Source: Cupriavidus agavae (GTDB lineage Bacteria > Pseudomonadota > Gammaproteobacteria > Burkholderiales > Burkholderiaceae). Taken from it: 64,000 nucleotides of DNA. Position 1 is the stretch's first letter. Each line of letters opens with the position of its first letter. The translations under genes were made by a program, and so were the position numbers. The DNA is taken from assembly GCF_004217045.1 (NCBI RefSeq), contig NZ_SGXM01000001.1, forward strand, positions 496,001 through 560,000, in the 5' to 3' direction. A model generated the notes under the pieces. The model was not told the origin of the DNA and ran no database searches. It saw nothing but the letters and a program-made list of their open reading frames with translations. Below, in pieces: positions 51,424-64,000 of this stretch.

Positions 51424-53361
51424 TCAACGCTCGTAACGCGAGCGGCTGTTGCCGTTGCGCTGGCCGCCAAAGCCGCCGCGATCGCCGCCACGGTCGCCGA
51501 ACTTGCGGTCGCCGAAGCTACGCTGTTCGCCGCCGAAACCACGGTTGCCGTCGCGCTGGCCACCGCCTTCGCGGTTGAAGCTGCGCTCGCCGCCACCGAA
51601 GCTGCGCTCACCGCCGAAGCTGCGCTCGCCGCCGCCGAAGCCGCGTTGCTGGCCCTGGCCCTGACCCTGGCCCTGGCCGCGATAGCCGGTGTTGCCACGG
51701 TCGCCGAAACCACGGTTCTCGCCACGGTCGCCAAAGCCACGGCTTTCGCCGCCGCCGAAGCCACGTTGCTCGCCACGGTCACCAAAGCCACGGTTCTCGC
51801 CGCCGAACTTGCGCTCGCCGAAGTTGCGGTCGCCAAAGCTGCGCTCGCCGCCGCCTTCGCGGCTGCCACGGTAACCACCGCCGTTGCCGCCGTTGTTGCC
51901 ACGGTAGCCGCCGCCGCTGTTGCCACGGAAGCCATCACGGCCGCCCGGCTTGCCGCCGAAGCTCGAACGCGGCTTGGGCGAACGGCGCGGTTCGTGGCCT
52001 TCGATCACCGAGGCGTCCACGCGGTTGTTCGTGAAGCGCTCGATGCGCTTCCACTGGAACATGTCGTTGTGGTTCACGAGGTTGATCGCCACACCCGAAC
52101 GGCCGGCACGGCCGGTACGGCCGATACGGTGCACGTAGTCCTCGGCCTGCTTGGGCAGGTCGAAGTTCACCACGTGGGTGATGTCGGGCACGTCGATGCC
52201 GCGGGCGGCCACGTCGGTGGCCACCAGCACGCGCAGGTTGCCGCGGCGCAGCGCGGTCAGCGTGCGGTTACGCGCGCCTTGCGTCATGTCGCCGTGCAGG
52301 GCGCCAGCGGAGAAGCCGGTGTCCGACAGGCGCTCGGCCAGCGAATCGGCATCGCGCTTGGTGGCCGTGAACACGATGGCCTGCTTCAGCGACGCGTCGC
52401 GCAGCAGGTGGTCGAGCAGGCGCTCCTTGTGCGACATGTCGTCGGTGAAGTGCAGGCGCTGCTCGATGTGGCTCTGGTCGGCACGCGCGGCGGCGATTTC
52501 GATGCGCTGCGGGTCCTTCAGCTGGCGCGAAGCCAGTTGGGCGATGCGGGCGTCCAGCGTGGCCGAGAACATCAGCGTCTGGCGCGAGGCCGGCGTGGCG
52601 GCCACGATGGCGTCGATGTCATCGGCAAAGCCCATGTCCAGCATGCGGTCGGCTTCGTCGAACACCAGCATGTCCAGCGCGGACAGGTCGATGCGGCCGG
52701 CGTCGATATGGTCGAGCAGGCGGCCCGGCGTGGCCACGAGGATGTCCGGCATGCGCGAGAGCATGGCCAGCTGCTTCGGGTAGGGCATGCCGCCCAGGAT
52801 GCTGGCGCACACGATGCGGCGCAGGTGGCGGCCGTACTTGGCGGCGGCCTCGGTCACCTGCAGGGCCAGTTCGCGCGTCGGCGTCAGCACCAGCAGCGAC
52901 GGCTGGGCTGCGGCCGGGCGGGGGCGCTTGCCCTTCATGCGCTTGGCGGGTTCGGTCGGACGGTTCGTGGCCGGCTTCTCGCTGATGCGCTGGATGGCGG
53001 GCAGCATGAACGCGGCGGTCTTGCCCGAACCGGTCTGGCTCGAAACCAGCAGGTCCTTGCCAGCCAGGAAGGCCGGAATGGCCTGCGCCTGGACGGGCGT
53101 CGGGTCGTTGTAGCCCGCTTCGGCCAGGGCGCGCAGGATGGCGGCGTCGAGGCCGAGCTTGGCGAAGCCGCTGGCCGTGGCGGGCGCGGCGGCGGCAGCA
53201 TCAGCGGCGACCGGCGCGGCATCGGCGTTGAGCAGGGCGTCGAGCTTGTCGAGCGGGCTCACGGCAGCGGCGGGCGTGGCGGATGCGTCGGTGGCGGAGG
53301 CAAAAGGTTGCTCCGCACGGAAATCTTCGTGCTGGGTCATGTCGTACGTATAAATATGCAT
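51424..53361 (-). CDS. RhlE-type DEAD-box RNA helicase with long Gly/Arg-rich repeat tail
   Basis: 645 residues. The helicase core is complete: Q motif (LGLDAAILRALAEAGYNDPT), SQTGSGKTAAF, TPTRELALQ, TPGRLLDH, DEAD, SAT and HRIGRTGRAG. From about residue 470 it becomes a repetitive tail (GFGDRGENRGFGDRG, SFGGERSFGGGERSF, GQGQGQGQ), an RGG-like low-complexity segment expected to bind RNA and favour condensates. Either MHIYTYD at 53361 or the in-frame MTQHEDF at 53340 may be the start. It is a paralogue of the rhlE gene at 34.0 kb. Confidence 0.92.
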   Translation of the reverse strand: MHIYTYDMTQHEDFRAEQPFASATDASATPAAAVSPLDKLDALLNADAAPVAADAAAAAPATASGFAKLGLDAAILRALAEAGYNDPTPVQAQAIPAFLAGKDLLVSSQTGSGKTAAFMLPAIQRISEKPATNRPTEPAKRMKGKRPRPAAAQPSLLVLTPTRELALQVTEAAAKYGRHLRRIVCASILGGMPYPKQLAMLSRMPDILVATPGRLLDHIDAGRIDLSALDMLVFDEADRMLDMGFADDIDAIVAATPASRQTLMFSATLDARIAQLASRQLKDPQRIEIAAARADQSHIEQRLHFTDDMSHKERLLDHLLRDASLKQAIVFTATKRDADSLAERLSDTGFSAGALHGDMTQGARNRTLTALRRGNLRVLVATDVAARGIDVPDITHVVNFDLPKQAEDYVHRIGRTGRAGRSGVAINLVNHNDMFQWKRIERFTNNRVDASVIEGHEPRRSPKPRSSFGGKPGGRDGFRGNSGGGYRGNNGGNGGGYRGSREGGGERSFGDRNFGERKFGGENRGFGDRGEQRGFGGGESRGFGDRGENRGFGDRGNTGYRGQGQGQGQGQQRGFGGGERSFGGERSFGGGERSFNREGGGQRDGNRGFGGEQRSFGDRKFGDRGGDRGGFGGQRNGNSRSRYER

Positions 53362-53866
53362 GGCACCCCGGGGCAGTGTGCGCGAAGGGGTGGGCGCAAG
53401 TGCAAAGTCTTAAAAAAGGCTTCGGCGCCAATCGGTAGGCCGTTCGACAGACTCAGCTGGCAACACGGCGGCAGGCAGGGCGGGCGGCTGGTTTATTTTC
53501 ATAACCGGCCGATTATCCCTGGCAGGCAAACAGCGCAATGGACTACAGGCTGTTCATCAGGATCGGAGACGAGGCGACGTCAGGTGAGCGGTGCGATTCT
53601 GGCCAGGCACCTGTCTGAACTTCGTGTGATGACAGAGGCAGGGAGCAGATCTTGGGAGGGCAGCGGATACGCCATGGGCTGTTGCCGGGCGCGGTGCGGA
53701 ACTCACAGTGCGAAACTCACGGCGCGGAGTATAGCAGAACGTTGATTTTTTTGTTGCACCGCGAAACGGCCCAACCGTAAGCAAACGTAAGTACGAAACG
53801 CCGGTGCGAGAGCCGGGAGGCGCCGGCGTCGCTTGCATGTGGGGGCGCGCTGCCTATACTGCAGTC

Positions 53867-54148
53867 GCGGGCAGTACTGCCCGTATGGGGCGGACGGATA
53901 CACGTCCCGCTGATCCTGCCTACGGCAAGGTTTGCTTGCTGCTCGGCGCCGGCATTGCGGTCATTGATGCCACAGCCACGTTTCCTCCGACTGTCCGGGT
54001 GGTCCGGATGGTCGTCCGCGTCATGGGCGGAATCCATGGGAAACATGCCTGGCACAGGAATGACCGGAGTCGCCGGTGACGCAGACCCAGGAGGTCCGGG
54101 CCCGTCCGCAACCAAAGCCCGCCAATGACTTGGCGGGCTTTTCTTTTA
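53867..54148 (+). ncRNA. Candidate small RNA (promoter to terminator, about 280 nt)
   Basis: TTGCAT (53833-53838) and TATACT (53855-53860) with a 16-base spacer predict a start near 53867. The transcript would open with the palindrome CGGGCAGTACTGCCCG (53868-53883). It ends at the terminator listed next. No family was recognised; it is not RNase P RNA, tmRNA or SRP RNA by inspection. A short unrecognised peptide cannot be excluded. Confidence 0.35.
54114..54148 (+). terminator. Strong intrinsic terminator, plus strand
   Basis: AAAGCCCGCCAA (54114-54125), loop TGAC, TTGGCGGGCTTT (54130-54141), then TCTTTT. The T tract favours plus-strand termination, although the hairpin also lies just beyond the last gene of the minus-strand peptide operon. 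Confidence 0.85.
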
Positions 54149-54173
54149 TGTGGCCGGAACGTCTCGCGCGGTA

Positions 54174-54389
54174 CTACCTGTGCGGCGTTCCGGTCTCCCG
54201 TTCCTCCCCTGCATCCTGCGGCGTGCCGGGGAAACCCTGCGGGTACTGGATCAACCGCGTCAGCGACGGCCGCCGGTGCGATTGCCAGCGATAGCTGCCG
54301 GCCAGCCGGGCTCCGCCGATGATGGCGGTCATGGCCTCGCGGTCGAGGTCCATGTTCTCCGACAAATCCTTGATGACGATGACTGCCAT
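54174..54389 (-). CDS. Small double-glycine-leader protein E (peptide operon, gene 4)
   Basis: 71 residues. The leader is MAVIVIKDLSENMDLDREAM then TAIIGG, matching the pattern shared by the four other small proteins here: (I/L)-x-(I/V)-x-D-L-x(5)-L-D-x(3)-(M/L)-x2-(I/V)-x-GG. After GG the sequence is short, basic and Pro/Arg-rich (ARLAGSYRWQSHRRPSLTRL...) and lacks the Asn/Gln-rich core of its sisters, so it may be a diverged or degraded member. GGAGAA precedes the ATG. It is last in the minus-strand operon. The function is unknown. Confidence 0.7.
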   Translation of the reverse strand: MAVIVIKDLSENMDLDREAMTAIIGGARLAGSYRWQSHRRPSLTRLIQYPQGFPGTPQDAGEERETGTPHR

Positions 54390-54543
54390 GGCGTTCTCCA
54401 GCGTGCGGGCCTTTGTACGGCCGGCCGGCGTGGCGCCGGTCGGGCGGCGCCGGGGCAGGCGCGGGCCCGATTCAGTATAGGCAAGTGCGCTGGCCGCGGC
54501 GGCGCCGGCACGAGGCAGGCGTCGCCGCGGCCAGCGGGCGGCT

Positions 54544-54816
54544 TCAGACCGCCGCCCAGTTGCCGCCCCATTGCGAGGGCTTCACGTTCAGCGCGATGTT
54601 GCCGAGGTCCACGCCGACAATCTTGTTGTTGTTGAACGCGGCCACGTTCACTTCCTGCAGTTGCTGCACGTTCTGGTTGATGTTGATGTTGACGTTGGCC
54701 AGCGGGCCCATGTTGGCGGCCTTGCTGAGCCAGCTGTTGCCGCCGCGGATGGCGCACAGCGACTGGCGGTCGAGGTCCTTGCTGGCGGCAAGGTCGCGGA
54801 CGATGATCGAGGACAT
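54544..54816 (-). CDS. Small double-glycine-leader protein D (peptide operon, gene 3)
   Basis: 90 residues. The leader is MSSIIVRDLAASKDLDRQSL, then CAIRGG. The part after GG is Asn/Gln/Val-rich with alternating polar and hydrophobic residues (ANVNININQNVQQLQEVNVA, AFNNNKIVGVDLGNIALNVK), which looks beta-prone. It has one Cys, in the leader, and ends QWGGNWAAV. AAGGAG precedes the ATG. It shares the leader with proteins A, B, C and E but its core is different, as in families of exported peptides with a common signal and variable cargo. Confidence 0.8.
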   Translation of the reverse strand: MSSIIVRDLAASKDLDRQSLCAIRGGNSWLSKAANMGPLANVNININQNVQQLQEVNVAAFNNNKIVGVDLGNIALNVKPSQWGGNWAAV

Positions 54817-54905
54817 GGCGAACTCCTTGGAATGCGGTTGCGGTGGCGCGCGGGCGGGTGCCCCCGCGCCGGGGCGATGGGTGGGGCGGCGGGGCCGGCG
54901 GGGCC

Positions 54906-55178
54906 TTAGCGCCAGACGTTGTTGGTGGCCGACTGGTTCGTGTCCACCGTGTTGCGCATGTGTTCCTGGAAGGCCGAGCCGTTGGCGAAGGCGTTGTTCA
55001 CGCTCTGCATCTGCTGGTTCTGCTGGTCGATCTTCAGGCTCGAATCGAACGACAGCTTCACCGGGGCGTAGACGCTGGTCCACGGGGCGATCAGGCCGAG
55101 GCCGCCGCGCACGGACTTCATGCCGTGGGCGTCGAGGGTGGCGGTGCTGGACAGGTCGAGGATGGTCAGGGTGCTCAT
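54906..55178 (-). CDS. Small double-glycine-leader protein B (peptide operon, gene 2)
   Basis: 90 residues. The leader is MSTLTILDLSSTATLDAHGM then KSVRGG, and the core is closely related to proteins A and C: TSVYAPVKLSFD, then QQNQQMQSV, then NGSAFQEHMRNTVDTNQ. No Cys is present. TTGGAGACTGCC lies directly before the ATG. It sits 66 bases after gene A in the same orientation with no promoter evident between, so it is co-transcribed from the sigma-54 promoter. Confidence 0.85.
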   Translation of the reverse strand: MSTLTILDLSSTATLDAHGMKSVRGGLGLIAPWTSVYAPVKLSFDSSLKIDQQNQQMQSVNNAFANGSAFQEHMRNTVDTNQSATNNVWR

Positions 55179-55244
55179 GGCAGTCTCCAATACTTGGTGC
55201 GTGTGTGCGGATATGGCGAAAGTACGATGAAAGGTGCGGCCGGA

Positions 55245-55520
55245 TCAGACGGCGCCGTACACGTTGTTCTGGGCGTGCTGGTTCGTCGTGACGTTGTTGT
55301 GCATGTTGGCCTGGAAGGCCGAGCCGTTGCCGAAGTAGCTCGTCACGTCCTGCATCTGCTGGTTCGACTGGTTGATCGTCGTGGTCTTGTCGAAGGACAG
55401 CTTGAACGGGGCGTAGACGCTGGTGTAGGGGGCGAAGCCGAGGCCGCCGCGTACGGCTTGCAGCGACTTGGCGTCGAGGGTTTCGGTCGAGGACAGGTCC
55501 TTGATGGTCAGCGTGGTCAT
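55245..55520 (-). CDS. Small double-glycine-leader protein A (peptide operon, gene 1)
   Basis: 91 residues. The leader is MTTLTIKDLSSTETLDAKSL then QAVRGG; the core has TSVYAPFKLSFDKTTTINQ, SNQQMQDVTSYFGNGSAFQ and TNQHAQNNVYGAV. It is nearly identical to the distant protein C, in leader, core and 5-prime DNA. Asn and Gln are very abundant. The leader resembles double-glycine signals cut by C39-peptidase ABC exporters. GGAGAC precedes the ATG; the longer upstream open frame is the promoter region. It is first in the operon. Confidence 0.87.
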   Translation of the reverse strand: MTTLTIKDLSSTETLDAKSLQAVRGGLGFAPYTSVYAPFKLSFDKTTTINQSNQQMQDVTSYFGNGSAFQANMHNNVTTNQHAQNNVYGAV

Positions 55521-55590
55521 GACAGTCTCCAGATAGGAAGGTAAGGCTTTCGGTGTGATGAGCATCGGGTTGGTGTCGCGCTCGGACCAG

Positions 55591-55610
55591 ATATCGCAGG
55601 GAGCGTGCCA
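55591..55610 (-). promoter_or_regulatory. Sigma-54 promoter of the peptide operon
   Basis: On the minus strand, TGGCACG-CTCC-CTGCG (from 55610) matches the sigma-54 consensus TGGCACG-N4-TTGC. GG (55609-55608) and GC (55597-55596) are exactly 10 bases apart. Transcription would start near 55585, 65 bases before gene A. The same sequence lies upstream of gene C at 60725-60740. Confidence 0.82.
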
Positions 55611-55642
55611 GCGCGTGCCACGGCCGCGAAAAAATCTGCGAA

Positions 55643-55668
55643 AGCCTTGCCGCACAAGGGCTGGCGGG
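55643..55668 (-). promoter_or_regulatory. Conserved upstream activating element of the peptide operon
   Basis: On the minus strand, CCCGCCAGCCCTTGT (55668-55654) is identical to 60679-60693 upstream of gene C. Here it continues to a dyad CCTTG-N5-CAAGG. It lies about 45 bases upstream of the minus-24 element, where an enhancer-binding protein would sit. Confidence 0.55.
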
Positions 55669-55918
55669 TGGTGGGCGGGGACTGCGCCGGGGCGCGGGCG
55701 GGGCGCGCCAGGCCCCGGGTGGCGGGCCTGCGCCAACAGAATGGTGTTGGGTGTTGGGCCGCAGGCGACGGCTGTGGGGCGCGCGCATCAGTGCGGCATT
55801 GCGGATGGCCGGAGTGCGCACTAGTATCCATCGAAGGCAATGTGTCGTGATGCGACCGATTCGCGGCATCACGCAACTGTCGGCAACCAGTCGGCAACCA
55901 CTCGTCGGGATGCATCGG

Positions 55919-58060
55919 ATGCCCAGCCTGACCGAACTCATCAGGAATTTTCAGCGCGGCAACCTCTCGCGCGACGATTTCCTCGCATCGGTGGATCTGG
56001 CCCTCAAGGACGATCAGACCGACTCCACGCAGTTTGCCCGCGTGCTCACTGAGGAGCACACGCGGTTTCCGCTGCCGCCGGCGGTCTACGCCGAGGTCAT
56101 GCATCGCATCGACTCGCACGCGGCCACGCAGTTCGATCCGGTTGGGGACGCCCACGGCATCGCTGCCGCCAGCGCCGGCGAGGAAACCCGTATCGATCCC
56201 GAACCGTCCGATCGCAGCGCCCCGGCGCAGGGCCAGCCGTTCTACCAGACCGGCAGCAATACCGGCAGCCAGAGCGGCCATTTCACGGGCGGCCATGTGC
56301 CGTCGGGGCCCACCAAGGGCGTGGGCGATACGCTCAACGGGCGCTTCGTGCTGGAGGAATGCCTGGGCGTGGGCGGCATGGGCACGGTCTACAAGGCGCT
56401 CGACCTGCGCAAGCTCGAAGCCTCGGACCGCAAGCCGTATATCGCCATCAAGGTGCTGAACCTGCAGTTCAGCGGCCATCCGAAATCACTGATCGCGCTG
56501 CAGCGCGAGGCGCGCAAGGCGCAGCAGCTGGCGCACCGGAACATCGTCACCGTCTACGATTTCGACCGCGACGGCCCCACGGTCTTCCTGACGATGGAAT
56601 ACCTGCAGGGCAAGTCGCTGAACCGCGTGCTGCGCGCGCCCGAGTTCACCGGGCTGCCTTATGTGAAGGCGATGCCAATCATCGTCGGGATGGGCAGCGC
56701 GCTCGCCTACGCCCACGAGCGCGGCTTCGTCCATTGCGATTTCAAGCCGGCCAACGTGTTCCTGACCGACCGTGGCGAGGTCAAGGTGATCGATTTCGGC
56801 ATCGCGCGCGGCTTCCAGCAACCGGCCGACGATGCCGACCAGACCGTGTTCGATCCCGGCTCGCTCGGCGGCATGACGCCGGCCTACGCCAGCCCGGAGA
56901 TGTTCGAGCACCGCGAGCCCGATCCGCGCGACGATATCTACGCGCTGGCCTGCGTGAGCTACGAACTGCTGACCGGCAAGCATCCCTACGACCGCGTGTC
57001 CGCCACCGAGGCGCGTGCCCGCAACGTCAAGCCAACGCGGCCGCGCACGCTGTCGCGCACCCAGTGGAAGGCGCTGCGCCAGGCGCTGTCGCTCGATCGT
57101 GCCACGCGTACGCCCACGGTCACGCGGTTCCTGGCCGGGCTCGGCGGCCAGCCGAAACAGGGGAGCGGCACGCTGGCGCCGCTGCTGGTGGGCGCGGCCG
57201 TGGCGGGGGTGGCGATTGCCACGGGCGTGGGCTATTACCTGTGGCGCGGCAAGGTGCCCGACGAACCCGGGCGCTCGCCGTCCGTGGCCAGCGCGCCCGC
57301 CGCGCCGCAGCCTGCGGCACCGCCGGTGAGGGCCGAGCAGGAGGCGCCCAAGGCGCCCACGGCCGTGCCGCTCAAGCCCGAGGCGGTGGCGGCGGTGCTG
57401 GCGGCCACGCCCTGTGCGCTGCTCAATGCCGACATCAAGGGCAATGTGCTGCAGGTGGATGGCTATGTGGCGGAATCGGCCATTGGCGCGCTGCGCGACA
57501 AGCTCGGCAAGCTCGGCGGCGTGAAGACACTGAAGCTCGACGCGCAGCCGCTGACCAACGACAAGTGCGACATGGTGCGGCTGATCGCACCGTACTGGTC
57601 AGGCAACCGCAAGCCGGGGCCGGCCGGGGAGAAGGGCGAGCGGGGCGGGGGCGCCGTGCTGCGCACGCGCGGCGGGACGCAACTGACCGAGGGCACGCCG
57701 CTCGTGCTCGATCTCCACACGCCGGCGCATGAGACCTATGTCTATGTGGATTACTTCAGCGCCGACGGCAAGGTGGCACATCTGGTGCCCAGTGCGCGCG
57801 TGCAGGGCCACCAGGCGCCGGCCAGCTACAGCGCCACCATCGGCGACAGCGGCGACTGGGTCATTTCAAAGCCGTTCGGCACCGAACTCGTGGTGCTGCT
57901 GACCACGCCCGAACCGCTGTTCAAGGGGCGCCGGCCCGAGGTGGAAACGCGCCAGGAGTACCTGCGCGCGCTGGAAAAGCCGCTCGCGCAGATGGCGGGC
58001 AAGCACGGCCGCGACCAGGTCAGCGCCGATGTCGTGCAGATCGCCACGCGGGCGAAATAG
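55919..58060 (+). CDS. Membrane-anchored Ser/Thr protein kinase with C-terminal DUF4384
   Basis: 713 residues from ATG 55919 (an ATG at 55910 is equally possible). A Hanks-type kinase spans about 143-405: G-loop GVGGMGTVYKA, Lys178 in IAIKVL, catalytic HCDFKPANVF with Asp274, and IDFGIAR. Cys replaces Arg before the catalytic Asp, so it is a non-RD kinase. One membrane helix (420-442) separates it from a C-terminal part with a DUF4384 domain (LTEGTPLVLDLHTPAHETYV...). DUF4384 is often seen with kinases of secretion-linked loci. It lies between the two peptide units. Confidence 0.88.
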   Translation: MPSLTELIRNFQRGNLSRDDFLASVDLALKDDQTDSTQFARVLTEEHTRFPLPPAVYAEVMHRIDSHAATQFDPVGDAHGIAAASAGEETRIDPEPSDRSAPAQGQPFYQTGSNTGSQSGHFTGGHVPSGPTKGVGDTLNGRFVLEECLGVGGMGTVYKALDLRKLEASDRKPYIAIKVLNLQFSGHPKSLIALQREARKAQQLAHRNIVTVYDFDRDGPTVFLTMEYLQGKSLNRVLRAPEFTGLPYVKAMPIIVGMGSALAYAHERGFVHCDFKPANVFLTDRGEVKVIDFGIARGFQQPADDADQTVFDPGSLGGMTPAYASPEMFEHREPDPRDDIYALACVSYELLTGKHPYDRVSATEARARNVKPTRPRTLSRTQWKALRQALSLDRATRTPTVTRFLAGLGGQPKQGSGTLAPLLVGAAVAGVAIATGVGYYLWRGKVPDEPGRSPSVASAPAAPQPAAPPVRAEQEAPKAPTAVPLKPEAVAAVLAATPCALLNADIKGNVLQVDGYVAESAIGALRDKLGKLGGVKTLKLDAQPLTNDKCDMVRLIAPYWSGNRKPGPAGEKGERGGGAVLRTRGGTQLTEGTPLVLDLHTPAHETYVYVDYFSADGKVAHLVPSARVQGHQAPASYSATIGDSGDWVISKPFGTELVVLLTTPEPLFKGRRPEVETRQEYLRALEKPLAQMAGKHGRDQVSADVVQIATRAK

Positions 58061-58089
58061 GCGGGCGGGGATAGAGGGGCCGGGCGGGT

Positions 58090-59328
58090 TCAGTTGGCGT
58101 CGCGTGCCACCCGGAAGCCATTCTGCGACTGCCGCACGCTGGTGCTGTACTTGAAGCGCGTGGACGACACCATGTAGCTTGCCCCCTCGCGCCACGAGCC
58201 GCCCCGGATCACGCGCGACGTGCAGGCGGGCTCCTCCCAGGCGCGGCCGTCCACCGGGGCCCCCTTGTACGTGCTGTGCCAGCAGTCGGCCACCCATTCC
58301 CAGACGCTGCCGTTCATGTCGTGCAGCCCGAACGGGTTGGCGGCGAACGAGCCGACGCTGGCTGGCGCGGCCTCGCTCCACGGGTCGCCGCACTCCTTGC
58401 AGTTGGCGTTGCCCTTGCTCATCTTGTCGCCCCACCAGAACGCCGAACTGGTGCCGCCGCGCGCGGCGTATTCCCATTCGGCCTCGGTCGGCAGGCGGTA
58501 GGGCTTGCCGGTGGTCTTCGACAGCCACGCCACGTACTGCTGGGCGTCGTCCCAGCTGATGTCGCGCACGGGTACGTTCTTCGCCTCGGCATTGTTGGTG
58601 GCCACGCGCGGGCAGGCGTTGGCATCGGCGCAGGCATTCCACTGCTCCACGGTGACCTCGAACTTGCCGATGGCGAACGGCTTGTTCACCACGACGTGAT
58701 GCGGCGGGCGCTCGGCGGGGTCGCTGGTGCTGCTGCCCATCGTGAAGGAGCCCGGCTTGACCGTGACCATCACCGGACATTGCGGGCAGTCGCGGCTCTC
58801 GCCGCCACTGGCCTCGGCAGAGCGGGGCGCCGTGGCGGGCGGCGTCTCCTTGCCCTCGTTGGCCATCGTGACCGTGCCTTGCGAGATCGCGCCGCCGGCG
58901 CGCGAGCGTGGCTGGTTGCTGGCAGCGGGCGGGGTGGGGGAGGGCGGCGCCGTGCGCGCCGCCGGCGGGGCGGGCTTCGGCTCCGGCCTGGCTTCGGGTT
59001 TCGCTTCGGCCTTGGCCGGCGGCGTGGCTGGCGTGGCGGCCGGTGCCGACGCGCGCAGGCGCTCCAGCCGGGACTTCGCCAGCGTTGCGAACTTGCCGTT
59101 CGGGTACTGCTTCAGGTAGGCCTCGTAGTCGCCCGCGTGGGTGCTGTTCTTGATCGAATCCCAGAACGAGAGTTCGTACTGCTCGTCGCTGTTCTTGGGC
59201 AGGATGCCTGCGACGGCCGGGGCTACGAGGAAATCGCCCGCCCGCCCCAGCGCGCCGGGTTCGACCTGCAGGACGCCGAGCACGCCGACGATTGCCGGCA
59301 ATGACACGGCCAGTGCTTTGCGCCACAT
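58090..59328 (-). CDS. Exported FGE/SUMF1-fold protein lacking catalytic cysteines
   Basis: 412 residues from [20 protein letters not shown], a likely signal peptide or anchor. [21 protein letters not shown] helix (about 68-87), a Pro/Ala-rich linker and an FGE-sulfatase domain (about 185-410) follow. The domain has [45 protein letters not shown] and [14 protein letters not shown]. The two Cys that bind copper in formylglycine-generating enzymes fall at Glu381 and Met386, so that activity is not expected. It is convergent with the kinase, 29 bases apart. GGGGG lies before the ATG. Confidence 0.85.
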
Positions 59329-59395
59329 ATTCAGCCCCCCTGAAAACCAAGCGGCACGCGGTGTGGAGTTGTCGTGACGTGGTGCCTGTCGTTTC

Positions 59396-59404
59396 AAGAT
59401 AGCA
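59396..59404 (-). promoter_or_regulatory. Extended minus-10 of the FGE-like gene
   Basis: On the minus strand, TG-C-TATCTT (59404-59396) lies about 70 bases upstream of the ATG at 59328. Only a poor minus-35 is seen. Confidence 0.3.
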
Positions 59405-59552
59405 CAGCGTCTGTACGGCGAAAGTTCGCTTTTTGCAGCCTGCCGCACTACGCTGAGAACACATCGTAGAGCGCATCGGAAAGATCGATCAAGAAACCGC
59501 TTCCGCGCAGCCCCCGGGTGTGCCGCGGACAGTTCTCCCGGGAGGAGCCGCC

Positions 59553-59981
59553 ATGCCCAGACGATCCCTGCGCCGCGTGCTTGCGGCTGCGCTGCTGGCC
59601 ACATGGCCGGCCCTGGCCATTCCGCTGACGCCGGCGCCCAAGAATGCCGAGACCTACATCATCTGGCCGGGCGACGGTACCGTGATCGACGGCGGCAAAC
59701 TCTGGGTGCGCATGGGTCTTAAAGGCATGGGCGTGTGCCCCAAGGGCATCGAGCGGCCCAACTGCGGGCACCACCACTTATTGATCGACGTGGAACTGCC
59801 GCCGCTGGACAAGGAAATCCCGAACGACCGCAATCACCTGCACTTCGGCGCCGGCGAGACCGACGCGCGCATCGAACTGCCGCCGGGCAAGCACACGCTG
59901 CAGTTGCTGCTGGGCGACAGCAAGCATGTCCCGTTCGATCCGCCGATTTACTCGAAGAAGATCACGATCACCGTGCGCTAG
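59553..59981 (+). CDS. DUF4399 periplasmic protein, copy 1
   Basis: 142 residues from ATG 59553 (GGGAGGAG upstream). A signal peptide ([20 protein letters not shown]) precedes the DUF4399 core: [40 protein letters not shown] and [20 protein letters not shown]. The GHHH cluster and later His suggest metal or ligand binding, but no function is established. Copy 2 follows after 27 bases and is about two-thirds identical in the core. Two Cys ([11 protein letters not shown]) are present only in this copy. Homologues are sometimes mislabelled rod shape-determining protein. Confidence 0.85.
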
Positions 59982-60008
59982 CGCACACGGTCCTTCGCGG
60001 AGAGCGCC

Positions 60009-60509
60009 ATGAAAATCATCGGACCTATGCTGACTGGGGGCGTGGCGGCGTTGCTGTGGGCCGGCGCCGCACTGGCCGCCGACGCCTCGGCGCCCGCCGG
60101 GCACGCGGGCCATGGCCCGGCCCCGGCCGCCGCCAGCACGGGGGCGGGGCCCACGCCCGCGCCGCGCAACGCCTATCTCTATATCGGCTATCCCAACAAC
60201 AACCAGACCATGCCGGCGGGCAAGCCGATCAAGGTCTGGTTCGGGCTGCGCAACATGGGTGTGGCGCCCAAGGACGTCAAGTTTCCGAACACCGGCCACC
60301 ACCACCTGCTGATCGACGTGGACCTGCCGCCGCTGGACAAGGAGATTCCGAACGACCGCAACCACCTGCACTTCGGCGCCGGCGAAACCGAAACCACCAT
60401 CGAGCTGCCGCCGGGCAAGCACACGCTGCAACTGCTGATGGGCGACGAGAAGCACATCCCGACCAATCCCCCGGTCTATTCGAAGAAGATCACGATCTAC
60501 GTCAGATGA
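60009..60509 (+). CDS. DUF4399 periplasmic protein, copy 2
   Basis: 166 residues. The signal peptide (MKIIGPMLTGGVAALLWAGAALA) is followed by an Ala/Gly/His/Pro-rich linker (GHAGHGPAPAAASTG) and the DUF4399 core ([60 protein letters not shown]). It is a tandem duplicate of the preceding gene, 27 bases apart, with GGAGAG before the ATG. A strong terminator follows at 60551-60579, so the two form a unit separate from peptide gene C. The function is unknown. Confidence 0.85.
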   Translation: MKIIGPMLTGGVAALLWAGAALAADASAPAGHAGHGPAPAAASTGAGPTPAPRNAYLYIGYPNNNQTMPAGKPIKVWFGLRNMGVAPKDVKFPNTGHHHLLIDVDLPPLDKEIPNDRNHLHFGAGETETTIELPPGKHTLQLLMGDEKHIPTNPPVYSKKITIYVR

Positions 60510-60550
60510 CCCCGGAGCAGCATGGGCGGGGCGGTCCGCCCGTCTCCGGC

Positions 60551-60579
60551 ACGGCGCACAGCGATGTGCGCCGTTTTTT
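60551..60579 (+). terminator. Intrinsic terminator after the DUF4399 pair
   Basis: CGGCGCACA (60552-60560), loop GCGA, TGTGCGCCG (60565-60573), then six T (60574-60579). Confidence 0.93.
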
Positions 60580-60678
60580 CGTGGCGGGAGATCAAGGTGT
60601 TGGACGAGGGGCGACAGGGGGCGGGTCGACTGTCTCCGGAAAGCCAACACCTGACAGCACGGCGCCATACCCCCATCG

Positions 60679-60740
60679 CCCGCCAGCCCTTGTCCCACAA
60701 CGAAATCACGATTTCCACGCGAGCTGGCACGCTCCCTGCG
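60679..60740 (+). promoter_or_regulatory. Sigma-54 promoter and upstream element of peptide gene C
   Basis: TGGCACG-CTCC-CTGCG (60725-60740) has GG (60726-60727) and GC (60738-60739) 10 bases apart. It is identical to the promoter at 55591-55610 on the other strand. Upstream, CCCGCCAGCCCTTGT (60679-60693) repeats the element of the first unit and continues to TTG-N5-CAA (here TTGTCCCACAA). Transcription would start near 60750. Confidence 0.82.
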
Positions 60741-60811
60741 ATATCTGGACCGAGCGCGACACCAACCCGATGCTCATCACCCAAAGCCACTTTCCTTCTC
60801 AGGAGCACATC

Positions 60812-61081
60812 ATGACCAAGCTGACCATCAAGGACCTGTCCTCGACCGAAACCCTCGACGCCAAGTCGCTGCAAGGCATCCGCGGCGGCCTCTCGCTGTT
60901 CGCACCGCGTACGTCGATCTTCACGCCCGTGAGCCTGTCGTTCGACAAGACCACGACGATCAACCAGTCGAACCAGCAGATGCAGGACGTGACCAGCTAC
61001 TTCGGCAACGGCTCGGCGTTCCAGGAGCATCTGAGCAACACGGTGCGCACGAACCAGGACGCCCACAACAACGTGTACTGA
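60812..61081 (+). CDS. Small double-glycine-leader protein C
   Basis: 89 residues. The leader is MTKLTIKDLSSTETLDAKSL then QGIRGG; the core shares TTTINQSNQQMQDVTSYFGN and GSAFQ with protein A. Only TSIFTPVSLSFD and the tail (LSNTVRTNQDAHNNVY) differ. AGGAG precedes the ATG. It is a single-gene unit between its own sigma-54 promoter and a terminator, in opposite orientation to the four-gene peptide operon 5.3 kb away. Gene C and gene A, with their 5-prime regions, are an inverted duplication. Confidence 0.87.
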   Translation: MTKLTIKDLSSTETLDAKSLQGIRGGLSLFAPRTSIFTPVSLSFDKTTTINQSNQQMQDVTSYFGNGSAFQEHLSNTVRTNQDAHNNVY

Positions 61082-61148
61082 TCGCACGAATGCAGCGCGG
61101 CACCGGCGTCGCAGTCCGCGCGACGCCGCAAGCCGCACGGGGAGCTTG

Positions 61149-61183
61149 CGCCGGGGAGATACCTCCACCCCGGCGATTTTTTT
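61149..61183 (+). terminator. Intrinsic terminator after peptide gene C
   Basis: CGCCGGGG (61149-61156) pairs with CCCCGGCG (61168-61175) around an 11-base loop, followed by A and seven T (61177-61183). Confidence 0.9.
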
Positions 61184-61266
61184 GGCTTGCGCTCCGCACC
61201 GGCCGCACCACAATACAGATCGAACGCCAGGACGCCCTGCCGCGGTCCGCTGGCGCTCGAAGCAGG

Positions 61267-62781
61267 ATGCCAAACGTGAATCGTTCTCCCGATACCCCCT
61301 TCGCTCCGCGCCGCACGTTGCGCCGCGCCGCGGCGTTGCTGACCGTGGCGATGGCCGCTGGCTGGCTCGCCGGCTGCGCCGGCTTCCGCCCGCCCGAGTA
61401 CAAGCGGCCGGACGTCCCCGGCAAGGCAGGATGGACGCCGAGCGAATCGGTCACGGTGTCGCCCGCCGAGACCATCGTGCCGGAATGGTGGAAGGGCTTC
61501 GGCGATCCTTACCTCGACCAGCTCGTGGCGCGGGCGCTGAGCGGCAATTTCGACATCAAGGTGCTGGCGGCCCGCATCCGCGTGGCCAATGCGCAGATTG
61601 CCGAGGCGCGTGCCGGCGCACTGCCGGTGTTCGACATCGGCGCGGGGCTCGACGTGACCAAGACCACGGGCCAGGCGGTCTCGCGCACCTACAATCTCGG
61701 CGGCACGGTGAACTGGGACATCGACGTCTGGGGCAAGGTCGAGAAGGGCGTGCAGGCGCAGGCCGCCGAGTACCGCGCCACCGAGGCCGACTGGCGCGCG
61801 GGCTACCTGGCGCTGGCCTCGGATGTATCGGTGACCTACTTCACGATCCTGCTGCTCGACGAGCAGGTGGAGCAGCAGCGCCGCACGCTGGGCCGCAATA
61901 CCGACATCCTCGGCACCTACAAGGCGATGCTGGCCAACGGCCTGATCCCCCAGATCCGGGTGATGCAGCAGCAGGCGGAAATCAACCGGCTCACCAAGGA
62001 CCTGATCGAACTGCAGCGCTCGCGCAATGTGGCCGAGAATGCGCTGGCCACGCTGGTCGGCGTGCCGGCCGGCGAGCTGAAGGTGCCGCCGGGGCGGCTG
62101 CAGGACCGCATCCGGCTGCCCGTGGTGCCGGCCGGGCTGCCGTCGCAACTGCTGGCGCGGCGCCCGGACATCATCGCGGCCGAGTACCGCGTGCTGGCGG
62201 CCTACAACCTGGTCGGCCAGGCGCGGCTGGCGCAACTGCCGAGCATCAGCCTGACCGCGCGTGGCGGCACGGCCAGTTTCGCGCTGTCGGACCTGATGAA
62301 ATCGTTCACGTTCGGCTTCATGCCGAGCATCAACCTGCCAATGCTGGATCCCAGCGTGCGTGCCCGCGTGAAGACTACCGAGGCCAATATCGGCGTGGTC
62401 GAGAACGAGTATGGCCGCACCGTGATGACCGCATTCGAGGAGGTGGAGAGCGCGCTGGTCAACGTGGACGCCCACAAGAAGCAGCGCATCGAGCTGCAGC
62501 AGCAGGTGGACCAGTTGCGCGTGGTCGGCACGCAGATCGACGCCCAGGCGCGTGAAGGGATCGTCTCCCAGCTCGAAGTCTTCGAGTCGGAGCGCTCGCT
62601 GCTGTCGGCGCAGCAGTCGTTGTTGGCCGTCCACCAACAAATCCTGGCCGATACCGTCACGCTGTACAAGGCACTCGGCGGCGGCTGGCCGGACGTCGAT
62701 GTCCGCAACGCGCCGCTCGCGGACGGACCCGCGCCCACGGCAGGCCCGGCGCCTGCCGGCGCACCCAACGCGGCGCGTTAG
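61267..62781 (+). CDS. NodT/TolC-family outer-membrane efflux lipoprotein
   Basis: 504 residues from ATG 61267; a GTG nine bases on (MNRSPDTPF) is possible. The N-terminus has a lipobox (LAGC at about 36-39), then the two OEP repeats of RND/type I outer-membrane channels: PEWWKGFGDPYLDQLV, DIDVWGKVEKGVQAQ, SQLLARRPDIIAAEYRVLAA and YGRTVMTAFEEVESALVNVD. The C-terminus is Pro/Ala-rich. It forms the outer-membrane exit duct. No periplasmic adaptor or inner-membrane pump is in the window. Next to the peptide genes it is a plausible exit channel for them. Confidence 0.92.
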   Translation: MPNVNRSPDTPFAPRRTLRRAAALLTVAMAAGWLAGCAGFRPPEYKRPDVPGKAGWTPSESVTVSPAETIVPEWWKGFGDPYLDQLVARALSGNFDIKVLAARIRVANAQIAEARAGALPVFDIGAGLDVTKTTGQAVSRTYNLGGTVNWDIDVWGKVEKGVQAQAAEYRATEADWRAGYLALASDVSVTYFTILLLDEQVEQQRRTLGRNTDILGTYKAMLANGLIPQIRVMQQQAEINRLTKDLIELQRSRNVAENALATLVGVPAGELKVPPGRLQDRIRLPVVPAGLPSQLLARRPDIIAAEYRVLAAYNLVGQARLAQLPSISLTARGGTASFALSDLMKSFTFGFMPSINLPMLDPSVRARVKTTEANIGVVENEYGRTVMTAFEEVESALVNVDAHKKQRIELQQQVDQLRVVGTQIDAQAREGIVSQLEVFESERSLLSAQQSLLAVHQQILADTVTLYKALGGGWPDVDVRNAPLADGPAPTAGPAPAGAPNAAR

Positions 62782-62991: not shown

Positions 62992-64000
62992 ATGACGCGC
63001 GACGATGCTCCCTTCCTCGATGTGCCGGTCATGGCGCCGAAACCGGGTCAGGCATTCGATGTCCTGCTGATGCCGGTGTCGCGCCCGGACCTGGGCGAAA
63101 TCCGCATCGGCGAGGACCTGTTCGCCATCGGCCGCGGCGAGGCGCCGTTCGCGGCGTATCCCACCGAAGCGGTTTCCGTGCTGTCGCGCCGCCATGCGCG
63201 CATTTTCTCCGAGGATGGCTCGGTCTACGTGGCCGATCTGGGCAGCAAGAACGGCACCCATGTGAACGGCGACGCCGTGGCGCAGCAGCCGGCGAAGCTG
63301 CGCGATGGCGACGAGGTGAGCTTTGGCGCGGGGCTGGCGTATCGCGTGCGGCTCTACCCGCGCCCGGCGGAGGCCGAACCGCCGCGCGTGGCGGTCACGC
63401 TGCTCCCGATGCGCGAGGACCTGGGCCTGCAGCCGGTGCTGGTGACCGGCTTCCCGTTCATGGTCAGCAAGGCCGACGACACGTTTGCCCGGTACCGGGA
63501 CGACTATCCGCATCAGGTCAACTACCTGTCGCGCCGCCACGCCCATCTGTTCCTGAAGCAGGGCGTGCCATGGATCGAGGACCTGGGCAGCACCAACGGC
63601 ACGTTCGTCAACGGCGTGCGCCTGCGCGACCAGTCGATCCGGCTCGAACCGGGTGACGTGATTGCCTTTGGCGGCAGCCACTTCGTCTATCGCGTGCAGA
63701 TCGAGTACGAGGCCGACGCGGACGCCACGGCCACCCGGACCTCGCTGTTCGTCGCCAGCACGGTGCCACCCGCGCAGGCGGCCGTGCTGCCGGTGGATGT
63801 CGATCCCGACAAGACCACGTTCGTGGGCGCCGCGGACTCATTCCTCGACATCTTCTGCGTCGACTACCGCGCCGCGCAGGAGGACGAGATCAATCCCGAA
63901 GCCCCGCCCGATGCCGGCAGCGATGCCGCGCACCGTCCGGCGCCGCGCGGCAAGGTGACGATGATGCTCGTCGAGGCGCTGCGCAGCTTCGGCATCCGCG
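62992..64000 (+). CDS. Double FHA-domain protein (partial, C-terminus beyond right edge)
   Basis: 336 codons are visible from ATG 62992; no stop is reached. The first FHA domain has FAIGRGEAPF, VSVLSRRHARIFSEDGSVYV and ADLGSKNGTHVNGD. The second has YLSRRHAHLFLKQGVPWIED and LGSTNGTFVNGVRL. Both keep the SRRH and NGT residues that bind phospho-threonine. A Val/Asp/Thr linker follows, then KVTMMLVEALRSFGIR at the edge. It is probably a reader of the Ser/Thr kinase encoded 7 kb upstream. It has its own promoter and an upstream palindrome. Confidence 0.88.
   Translation, partial: MTRDDAPFLDVPVMAPKPGQAFDVLLMPVSRPDLGEIRIGEDLFAIGRGEAPFAAYPTEAVSVLSRRHARIFSEDGSVYVADLGSKNGTHVNGDAVAQQPAKLRDGDEVSFGAGLAYRVRLYPRPAEAEPPRVAVTLLPMREDLGLQPVLVTGFPFMVSKADDTFARYRDDYPHQVNYLSRRHAHLFLKQGVPWIEDLGSTNGTFVNGVRLRDQSIRLEPGDVIAFGGSHFVYRVQIEYEADADATATRTSLFVASTVPPAQAAVLPVDVDPDKTTFVGAADSFLDIFCVDYRAAQEDEINPEAPPDAGSDAAHRPAPRGKVTMMLVEALRSFGIR

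Follow-up and report, generated by a model that had tools for sequence, protein, structure and literature searches.

In colicin V-type systems, class II microcins carrying a double-glycine leader are handled by a C39-peptidase ATP-binding cassette exporter (C39-ABC), HlyD and TolC. Here we describe a gene cluster of related make-up in a 64-kb stretch of the Cupriavidus agavae genome (contig NZ_SGXM01000001.1, positions 496,001 to 560,000; hereafter the window) and in the DNA directly to its right. The cluster encodes six small leader-bearing proteins, A to F, alongside a C39-ABC exporter and genes for phospho-signalling. Four further systems bear on it. HetC of Nostoc PCC 7120 has a cyclic nucleotide monophosphate (cNMP) domain that is required in vivo and was found to bind ppGpp in vitro (PMC10986499). 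In Synechococcus elongatus, several small proteins with GG or GA motifs, EbfG1-4, are about 6-7 kDa when cleaved and are exported with the aid of the C39-peptidase transporter PteB; the EbfG proteins are required for biofilm and one of them has the GA motif (PMC4997328). In the type VI threonine phosphorylation pathway, PpkA, PppA and Fha, with TagR, control the secretion machine (PMC10482370). CdzC and CdzD of Caulobacter crescentus are small proteins that are exported by a type I system and retained on the cell surface (PMC5380434).

The cluster resembles each of these in part. With colicin V-type systems it shares the double-glycine leader, C39-ABC, HlyD and a TolC-type channel; it differs in its multiple related cargo proteins, its phospho-signalling genes and its sigma-54 promoters, and no immunity gene was noticed in it. 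Both HetC and the exporter found here combine an N-terminal cNMP-type domain, a C39 peptidase and an ABC exporter. HetC, however, is reported with one cNMP domain, no nearby membrane fusion protein and no known substrate (PMC10986499), whereas this cluster has two cNMP domains, HlyD together with the NodT channel, and linked candidate substrates. The likeness to EbfG/PteB, drawn from its description, is one of several small GG (or GA) proteins and a C39 peptidase transporter; a sigma-54 activator, a kinase, a phosphatase and an FHA protein are present here and go unmentioned in the portion of that report drawn on (PMC4997328). The type VI pathway likewise unites a membrane Ser/Thr kinase, a PP2C phosphatase, an FHA protein and an envelope partner (PMC10482370), but in this cluster secretion would run through a C39 type I exporter, and no type VI secretion parts were recognised. 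CdzC and CdzD are also small and use a type I exporter (PMC5380434); the glycine zippers and CdzI-like immunity protein that go with them were not found in this cluster.

Our reading, which we hold to be likely, is of a type I secretion system that is dedicated to small leader-tagged proteins and controlled at three levels. The original prediction, of a peptide export and signalling system built around five leader peptides, is supported by the genes present and by their conservation, both at the level of sequence. It is refined by the sixth peptide, by a PP2C phosphatase and a peptidyl-prolyl isomerase (PPIase), and by the relatedness of the A, D and F cargo.

Leader, exporter and promoters

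All five predicted open reading frames (ORFs), A to E, are in place; the sixth, F, lies outside the window (Table 1). The shared leader was borne out by a 16-row alignment, in which M1, D8, L9, L15, G25 and G26 never vary and D16 hardly does. Relative to the cut, L(-12), M/L(-7), I/V(-4), G(-2) and G(-1) have the canonical double-glycine spacing. A leader profile of 26 positions was run against the whole genome (5.79 Mb, 19 contigs) and found exactly six places at E<=1e-11, all within the cluster, that of gene F being at contig positions 569286-569363 (G000:C1). The next match has E=0.13, and the leader is therefore not a chance resemblance.

The exporter starts 3.7 kb past the window edge, with HlyD and the PPIase before it and a sigma-54 activator after it; the original prediction had suggested looking beyond 64 kb for just such a pair of ABC and HlyD genes. 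It contains two cNMP-binding domains followed by C39 peptidase, ABC_membrane and ABC_tran domains. The genome has only three C39 domains, one of them in this cluster. Residues Q326, C332, H405 and D421 are invariant across nine aligned exporters and fit the C39 active site. The cluster has the parts of a C39 type I system: a C39-ABC protein with intact catalytic residues, HlyD, NodT and co-occurring double-glycine leaders. The best named matches to the exporter come from C. campinensis, Cupriavidus sp. U2 and others. One homologue (G020:C43:287131-288540) has an in-frame TGA in the matched stretch, either a sequencing error or the mark of a pseudogene.

Conservation was followed in 148 related genomes, in 30 fetched genomes (31 with C. 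agavae itself), in 80 named loci and in a class-wide draw of 369 genomes. The named loci come from Cupriavidus, Paraburkholderia, Caballeronia, Noviherbaspirillum, Herbaspirillum, Aromatoleum and others, and their upstream-gene counts are bounded by 10-kb flanks. The exporter N-terminus and the leader were found in the same 55 of the 148 relatives (55/55 against 0/93; Fisher's exact p=6e-42, for genomes that are related and not independent draws). Ten same-genus genomes are without exporter, leaders and DUF4399 genes, the last being present in 2/2 positive controls. The wider co-occurrence that had been proposed for the kinase, DUF4399 and NodT genes also holds. Exporter, activator, HlyD, FHA protein, NodT, both DUF4399 proteins and the formylglycine-generating enzyme (FGE)-fold protein were present, in conserved order, in 30/30 fetched genomes, with the kinase near the cluster in 29. 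The PPIase was found in 31/31 genomes and 79/80 named loci, PP2C in 28/31 and 73/80, and the sigma-54 activator in all 80 named loci. The block is gained or lost as a unit, and is present in P. xenovorans LB400. In the class-wide draw, leaders occurred in 3/3 genomes with a close exporter and in 1/366 of the others. That sole exception is a lone leader-like ORF (MINIRDLSASVELDREAMTELCGG...; L224 in G351, minus strand from 1338) with a Pro-rich tail and no close exporter match.

Sigma-54 sites were scored with hand-set weights based on the consensus, on a scale reaching 17.1 and with a threshold of 14.5; ten sites in 103 kb scored at least 14.5. The 17-mers upstream of A and B are identical, and A and B are themselves inverted copies, promoter included (inverted repeats I3 and I4). 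The highest score in the 103 kb belongs to the site that precedes F. Across genomes, sites of at least 14.5 precede F in 80/86 cases, A-type genes in 66/151, D in 0/23 and E in 1/31, against a background of 2%. A sigma-54-driven family of five had been predicted; this stands for A and B, and extends to F, but no site was found upstream of C, D or E in this genome. These three all lie downstream of B in a same-strand run that has B as its first gene and E as its last. The run is presumably a single operon, which the promoter counts fit.

Cargo of the leader

Four peptide types recur: A (represented in this genome by A, B and C), D, E and F. The original prediction placed A, B and C together, which the identities in Table 1 confirm, and gave D a core of its own, which is not upheld. 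When the leaderless parts were aligned with hhalign, D scored 26.7 against A and 26.3 against F, with shuffle maxima of 15.1 and 17.5; A, D and F score 26-27 mutually, and maxima over 20 column shuffles each were 15-17.5. Their cores thus align above the shuffled controls, and D is therefore not unrelated cargo. The common core reads approximately Q-x3-Q-x-Q-x-V-x-V-x-N. The E type has the leader alone in common with the A, D and F types; its shuffle controls gave odd outliers near 128 and were not used.

Mature A, D and F have little or no Cys (0-0.2%), are near neutral and contain much Asn plus Gln (21-26%). Mature E is short and basic, with a mean net charge of about +6 over its type, in line with the basic tail first noted, and E is found even in genomes without A-D. 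By type, the mature parts average 49-72 residues. The F cleavage motif is GG in most genomes and GA (RGAG) in a C. necator-related group. AlphaFold2 gave a leader helix only (residues 11-24 in A and 14-21 in F, with predicted confidence, pLDDT, of 52 and 39) and no confident mature fold. The ratio of nonsynonymous to synonymous polymorphism (pN/pS) is 0.28 for the E leader and 0.31 for mature F, and is below 1 for E, F and D; the A-type values, 1.19 for the leader and 0.79 for the mature part, mix paralogues and were not read as selection. Searches of A-type peptides against Pfam, NCBIfam and PDB returned nothing past weak leader-model matches; haemoglobin matches at E=0.012 were judged to be chance.

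In three C. pinatubonensis-like genomes (G006, G016 and G043), a different cargo family behind the same leader takes the place of A-D and occurs as many dispersed tandem pairs. The leader is therefore constant and the cargo exchangeable. This second family, seen at L216, L217, L218 and L220 (G043 and G006), has the pattern GGS.F.NSG.NAI.GG.GVSFASPN.I.APVTQVDAS.RT.VD...

Taking leader, exporter and composition together, we strongly infer that small Cys-free proteins are exported after cleavage at GG or GA. The mature A, D and F proteins could then assemble on the cell surface or in a matrix. We favour this role on the strength of the EbfG1-4 analogy, the composition and the copy number, and put it forward tentatively, at somewhat short of an even chance.

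Regulatory genes and gene map

The neighbours named in the original prediction (kinase, altered FGE-fold protein, two DUF4399 proteins, NodT and FHA protein) were all recognised, and a membrane Ser/Thr kinase, a PP2C phosphatase and an FHA protein thus stand together in one cluster. The kinase has intact HCDFKPAN and DFG motifs and one transmembrane segment, near residue 471, followed by a DUF4384-like domain (E=1.2e-5, slightly below the gathering score). The FHA protein has a transmembrane segment near residue 334 and weak TPR matches. An active FGE carries two active-site Cys in a GGSY-x-C-x4-C motif; the FGE-fold protein here has no catalytic Cys pair in its GGSW.. motif and so does not qualify as one. 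It matches the PvdO structure 5hha (E=2.8e-43). TagR may have an FGE-like fold as well. The DUF4399 genes are a tandem duplication, with 82% DNA identity over 249 nt (59726-59974 against 60254-60502). No type VI structural genes were recognised among the cluster genes examined, and the only TssB match in the genome is on contig C10. No Rfam families were found in 53300-61200.

The system probably operates as follows. The sigma-54 activator of the cluster would turn on the A, B-C-D-E and F promoters, where the sites are observed and binding of the activator is presumed. Precursors, perhaps kept unfolded with help from the PPIase, would be cut by the C39 domain after GG (GA in some F) and would pass through ABC, HlyD and NodT. 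The membrane kinase, PP2C and FHA protein may adjust the exporter by Ser/Thr phosphorylation, much as PpkA, PppA and Fha do in type VI secretion. The FGE-fold and DUF4399 proteins are candidate envelope sensors, and the cNMP domains could add a nucleotide-type input to the exporter. The basic E protein may be an accessory to surface-assembled A, D and F.

Table 1. Features of the cluster. Coordinates are on the scale of the 64-kb window; for DNA to its right, 63000 is added to positions in locus L008.
Feature	Position	Strand	Evidence and remarks
Gene E, 71-aa leader peptide, basic tail	54174..54389	-	ORF; leader match E=9.6e-14
Gene D, 90-aa leader peptide, Asn-rich	54544..54816	-	leader match E=8.8e-13
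Gene C, 90-aa leader peptide, A type	54906..55178	-	leader match E=7.6e-12; 62% identity to A
Gene B, 91-aa leader peptide, A type	55245..55520	-	leader match E=3.5e-14; 80% identity to A
Sigma-54 -24/-12 element CTGGCACGCTCCCTGCG, upstream of B	55595..55611	-	score 15.1 of 17.1
Membrane Ser/Thr protein kinase	55919..58060	+	Pkinase E=1.4e-38; start codon inferred
FGE/SUMF1-fold protein, PvdO-like	58090..59604	-	PF03781 E=1.9e-58; start codon uncertain
DUF4399 protein 1	59520..59981	+	PF14347 E=2.1e-37
DUF4399 protein 2	60009..60509	+	PF14347 E=4.2e-36
Sigma-54 -24/-12 element CTGGCACGCTCCCTGCG, upstream of A	60724..60740	+	score 15.1
Gene A, 89-aa leader peptide	60812..61081	+	leader match E=1.2e-12
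NodT/TolC-type outer-membrane channel	61090..62781	+	TIGR01845 E=9.2e-89, above cut-off; start codon uncertain
FHA protein	63022..64000, running past the window to L008:2583	+	two FHA domains
HlyD	65580-66962		HlyD_3 E=5.2e-19; right of window
PPIC-type PPIase	66998-67750		right of window
cNMP-cNMP-C39-ABC exporter, 1034 aa	67731-70835		PF03412 E=1.2e-39; right of window
Sigma-54 activator (bacterial enhancer-binding protein)	70846-72174		AAA+ and lid domains; right of window
PP2C phosphatase	72190-72966	-	right of window; next after gene F, same strand
Gene F, sixth leader peptide	73073-73363 (L008:10073-10363)	-	9 kb right of window
Sigma-54 site of gene F	73420	-	

An ORF at L008:9280-10122 (+), labelled U280, was rejected as antisense; the true gene is PP2C on the opposite strand. 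Gene F adjoins an LRAT-domain protein (PF04970 E=3e-24, L008:10414-11241), with a sigma-54-like site at window-scale position 73700 (+). Beyond it, a tRNA-Arg(cct) at L008:11482-11556 is followed by a fall in GC content from 0.64 to 0.54 and by acyltransferase genes, a possible island boundary on the right of the cluster.

Distant exporters with 28-33% identity occur in other families of the class. They often adjoin an FHA protein (G248, G279, G379, G392 and G475; loci L113, L116, L118, L120 and L121), usually together with HlyD and a sigma-54 activator; a PPIase, PP2C, an outer-membrane efflux or an ATP-grasp protein is present as well in some of them. No leader peptides of the present family were seen in these distant clusters. 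In a nearer relative (G342), a separate contig carries E-type and A-like peptides next to an apparent PP2C ORF. It may be, though this is somewhat less likely than not, that the cluster represents an undescribed type I class, in which a kinase-PP2C-FHA switch and cNMP domains gate the exporter after translation and the cargo is a new family of Gln/Asn-rich surface proteins. Distant members of such a class, with parts of its core (sigma-54 activator, HlyD, PPIase, cNMP-C39-ABC, FHA protein and PP2C), would extend into other families.

Alternatives and implications

Several observations weigh against a phospho-switched exporter of surface proteins. A structural protein driven by dosage would be expected to show concerted evolution of the A copies, but only certain lineages do so (26/73 peptides), and concerted evolution of all A copies was not upheld. 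In the Pfam, NCBIfam and PDB searches, the mature parts had no similarity to known matrix or amyloid families. The action of the kinase on the exporter, the FHA protein or the activator is a proposal made from the gene content. Finally, the three Cupriavidus genomes with the exchanged cargo (G006, G016 and G043) have the exporter, and in the DNA fetched from them PP2C found no match; the phosphatase may therefore be dispensable.

The peptides could instead be class II microcin-like antibacterials exported by the C39 system, perhaps contact-dependent like CdzC/CdzD. Double-glycine leaders with C39, HlyD and TolC are the classic microcin export set, the leaders have weak matches to the TIGR01847 'bacteriocin' model, and the cargo is swappable between lineages. 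Two-protein contact-dependent bacteriocins with a type I secretion system do exist (PMC5380434). However, no CdzI-type immunity candidate was noticed among the conserved small ORFs, judged by eye, a screen that an unlinked or larger one could escape. GxxxG is not enriched over shuffles in A (12 against 20 expected) or F (23 against 36), and only mildly in D (18 against 12.5). Mature F is under purifying selection, and genomes hold several copies of the A type, which some lineages keep almost identical. We regard an antibacterial role as unlikely.

A role in cell-cell signalling, in which the kinase or an envelope protein would be the receptor of the exported peptides, is less probable again. 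The kinase, with a DUF4384-like domain after its transmembrane segment, does adjoin the peptide genes, and HetC, itself a cNMP-C39-ABC protein, is the proposed exporter of a differentiation signal (PMC10986499). Yet mature parts of this length, several different ones together, would be unusual for pheromones, and the duplication of the A type suggests a need for amount.

That the peptides are precursors of ribosomally synthesised and post-translationally modified peptides, modified prior to export by the FGE-fold protein or some other enzyme, appears quite improbable. The idea draws on weak leader matches to TIGR04149 (4 members, best E 0.0025) and TIGR04497 (1 member, E 0.17), and on an ATP-grasp-like gene in two of the distant exporter clusters, L113 (by Pfam) and L120 (by eye). 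Against it, the catalytic Cys pair is missing from the FGE-fold protein, whose site of action may be extracytoplasmic; in this cluster we recognised no radical SAM, ATP-grasp, YcaO or lanthionine enzyme, and there is almost no Cys in the A, D and F cargo. Spurious ORFs, or proteins that stay uncleaved in the cytoplasm, are scarcely credible. Families share the leader and its reading frame, leader and exporter co-occur perfectly among the 148 relatives, the promoters are conserved, and pN/pS stays below 1 in the E, F and D types, if not in every A region.

A regulated exporter of small leader-tagged proteins remains our preferred reading, with a surface or matrix role for the cargo put forward tentatively. 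Should the proposed gating be true, type I secretion would share control logic with type VI; we met no such case in open-licence full texts. HetC-like exporters are known, whereas HetC itself has no known substrate; the present cluster brings together candidate substrates, a promoter type and a proposed phospho-switch. As these are linked in culturable Cupriavidus, Paraburkholderia and Caballeronia, the questions of cargo and gating are directly testable.

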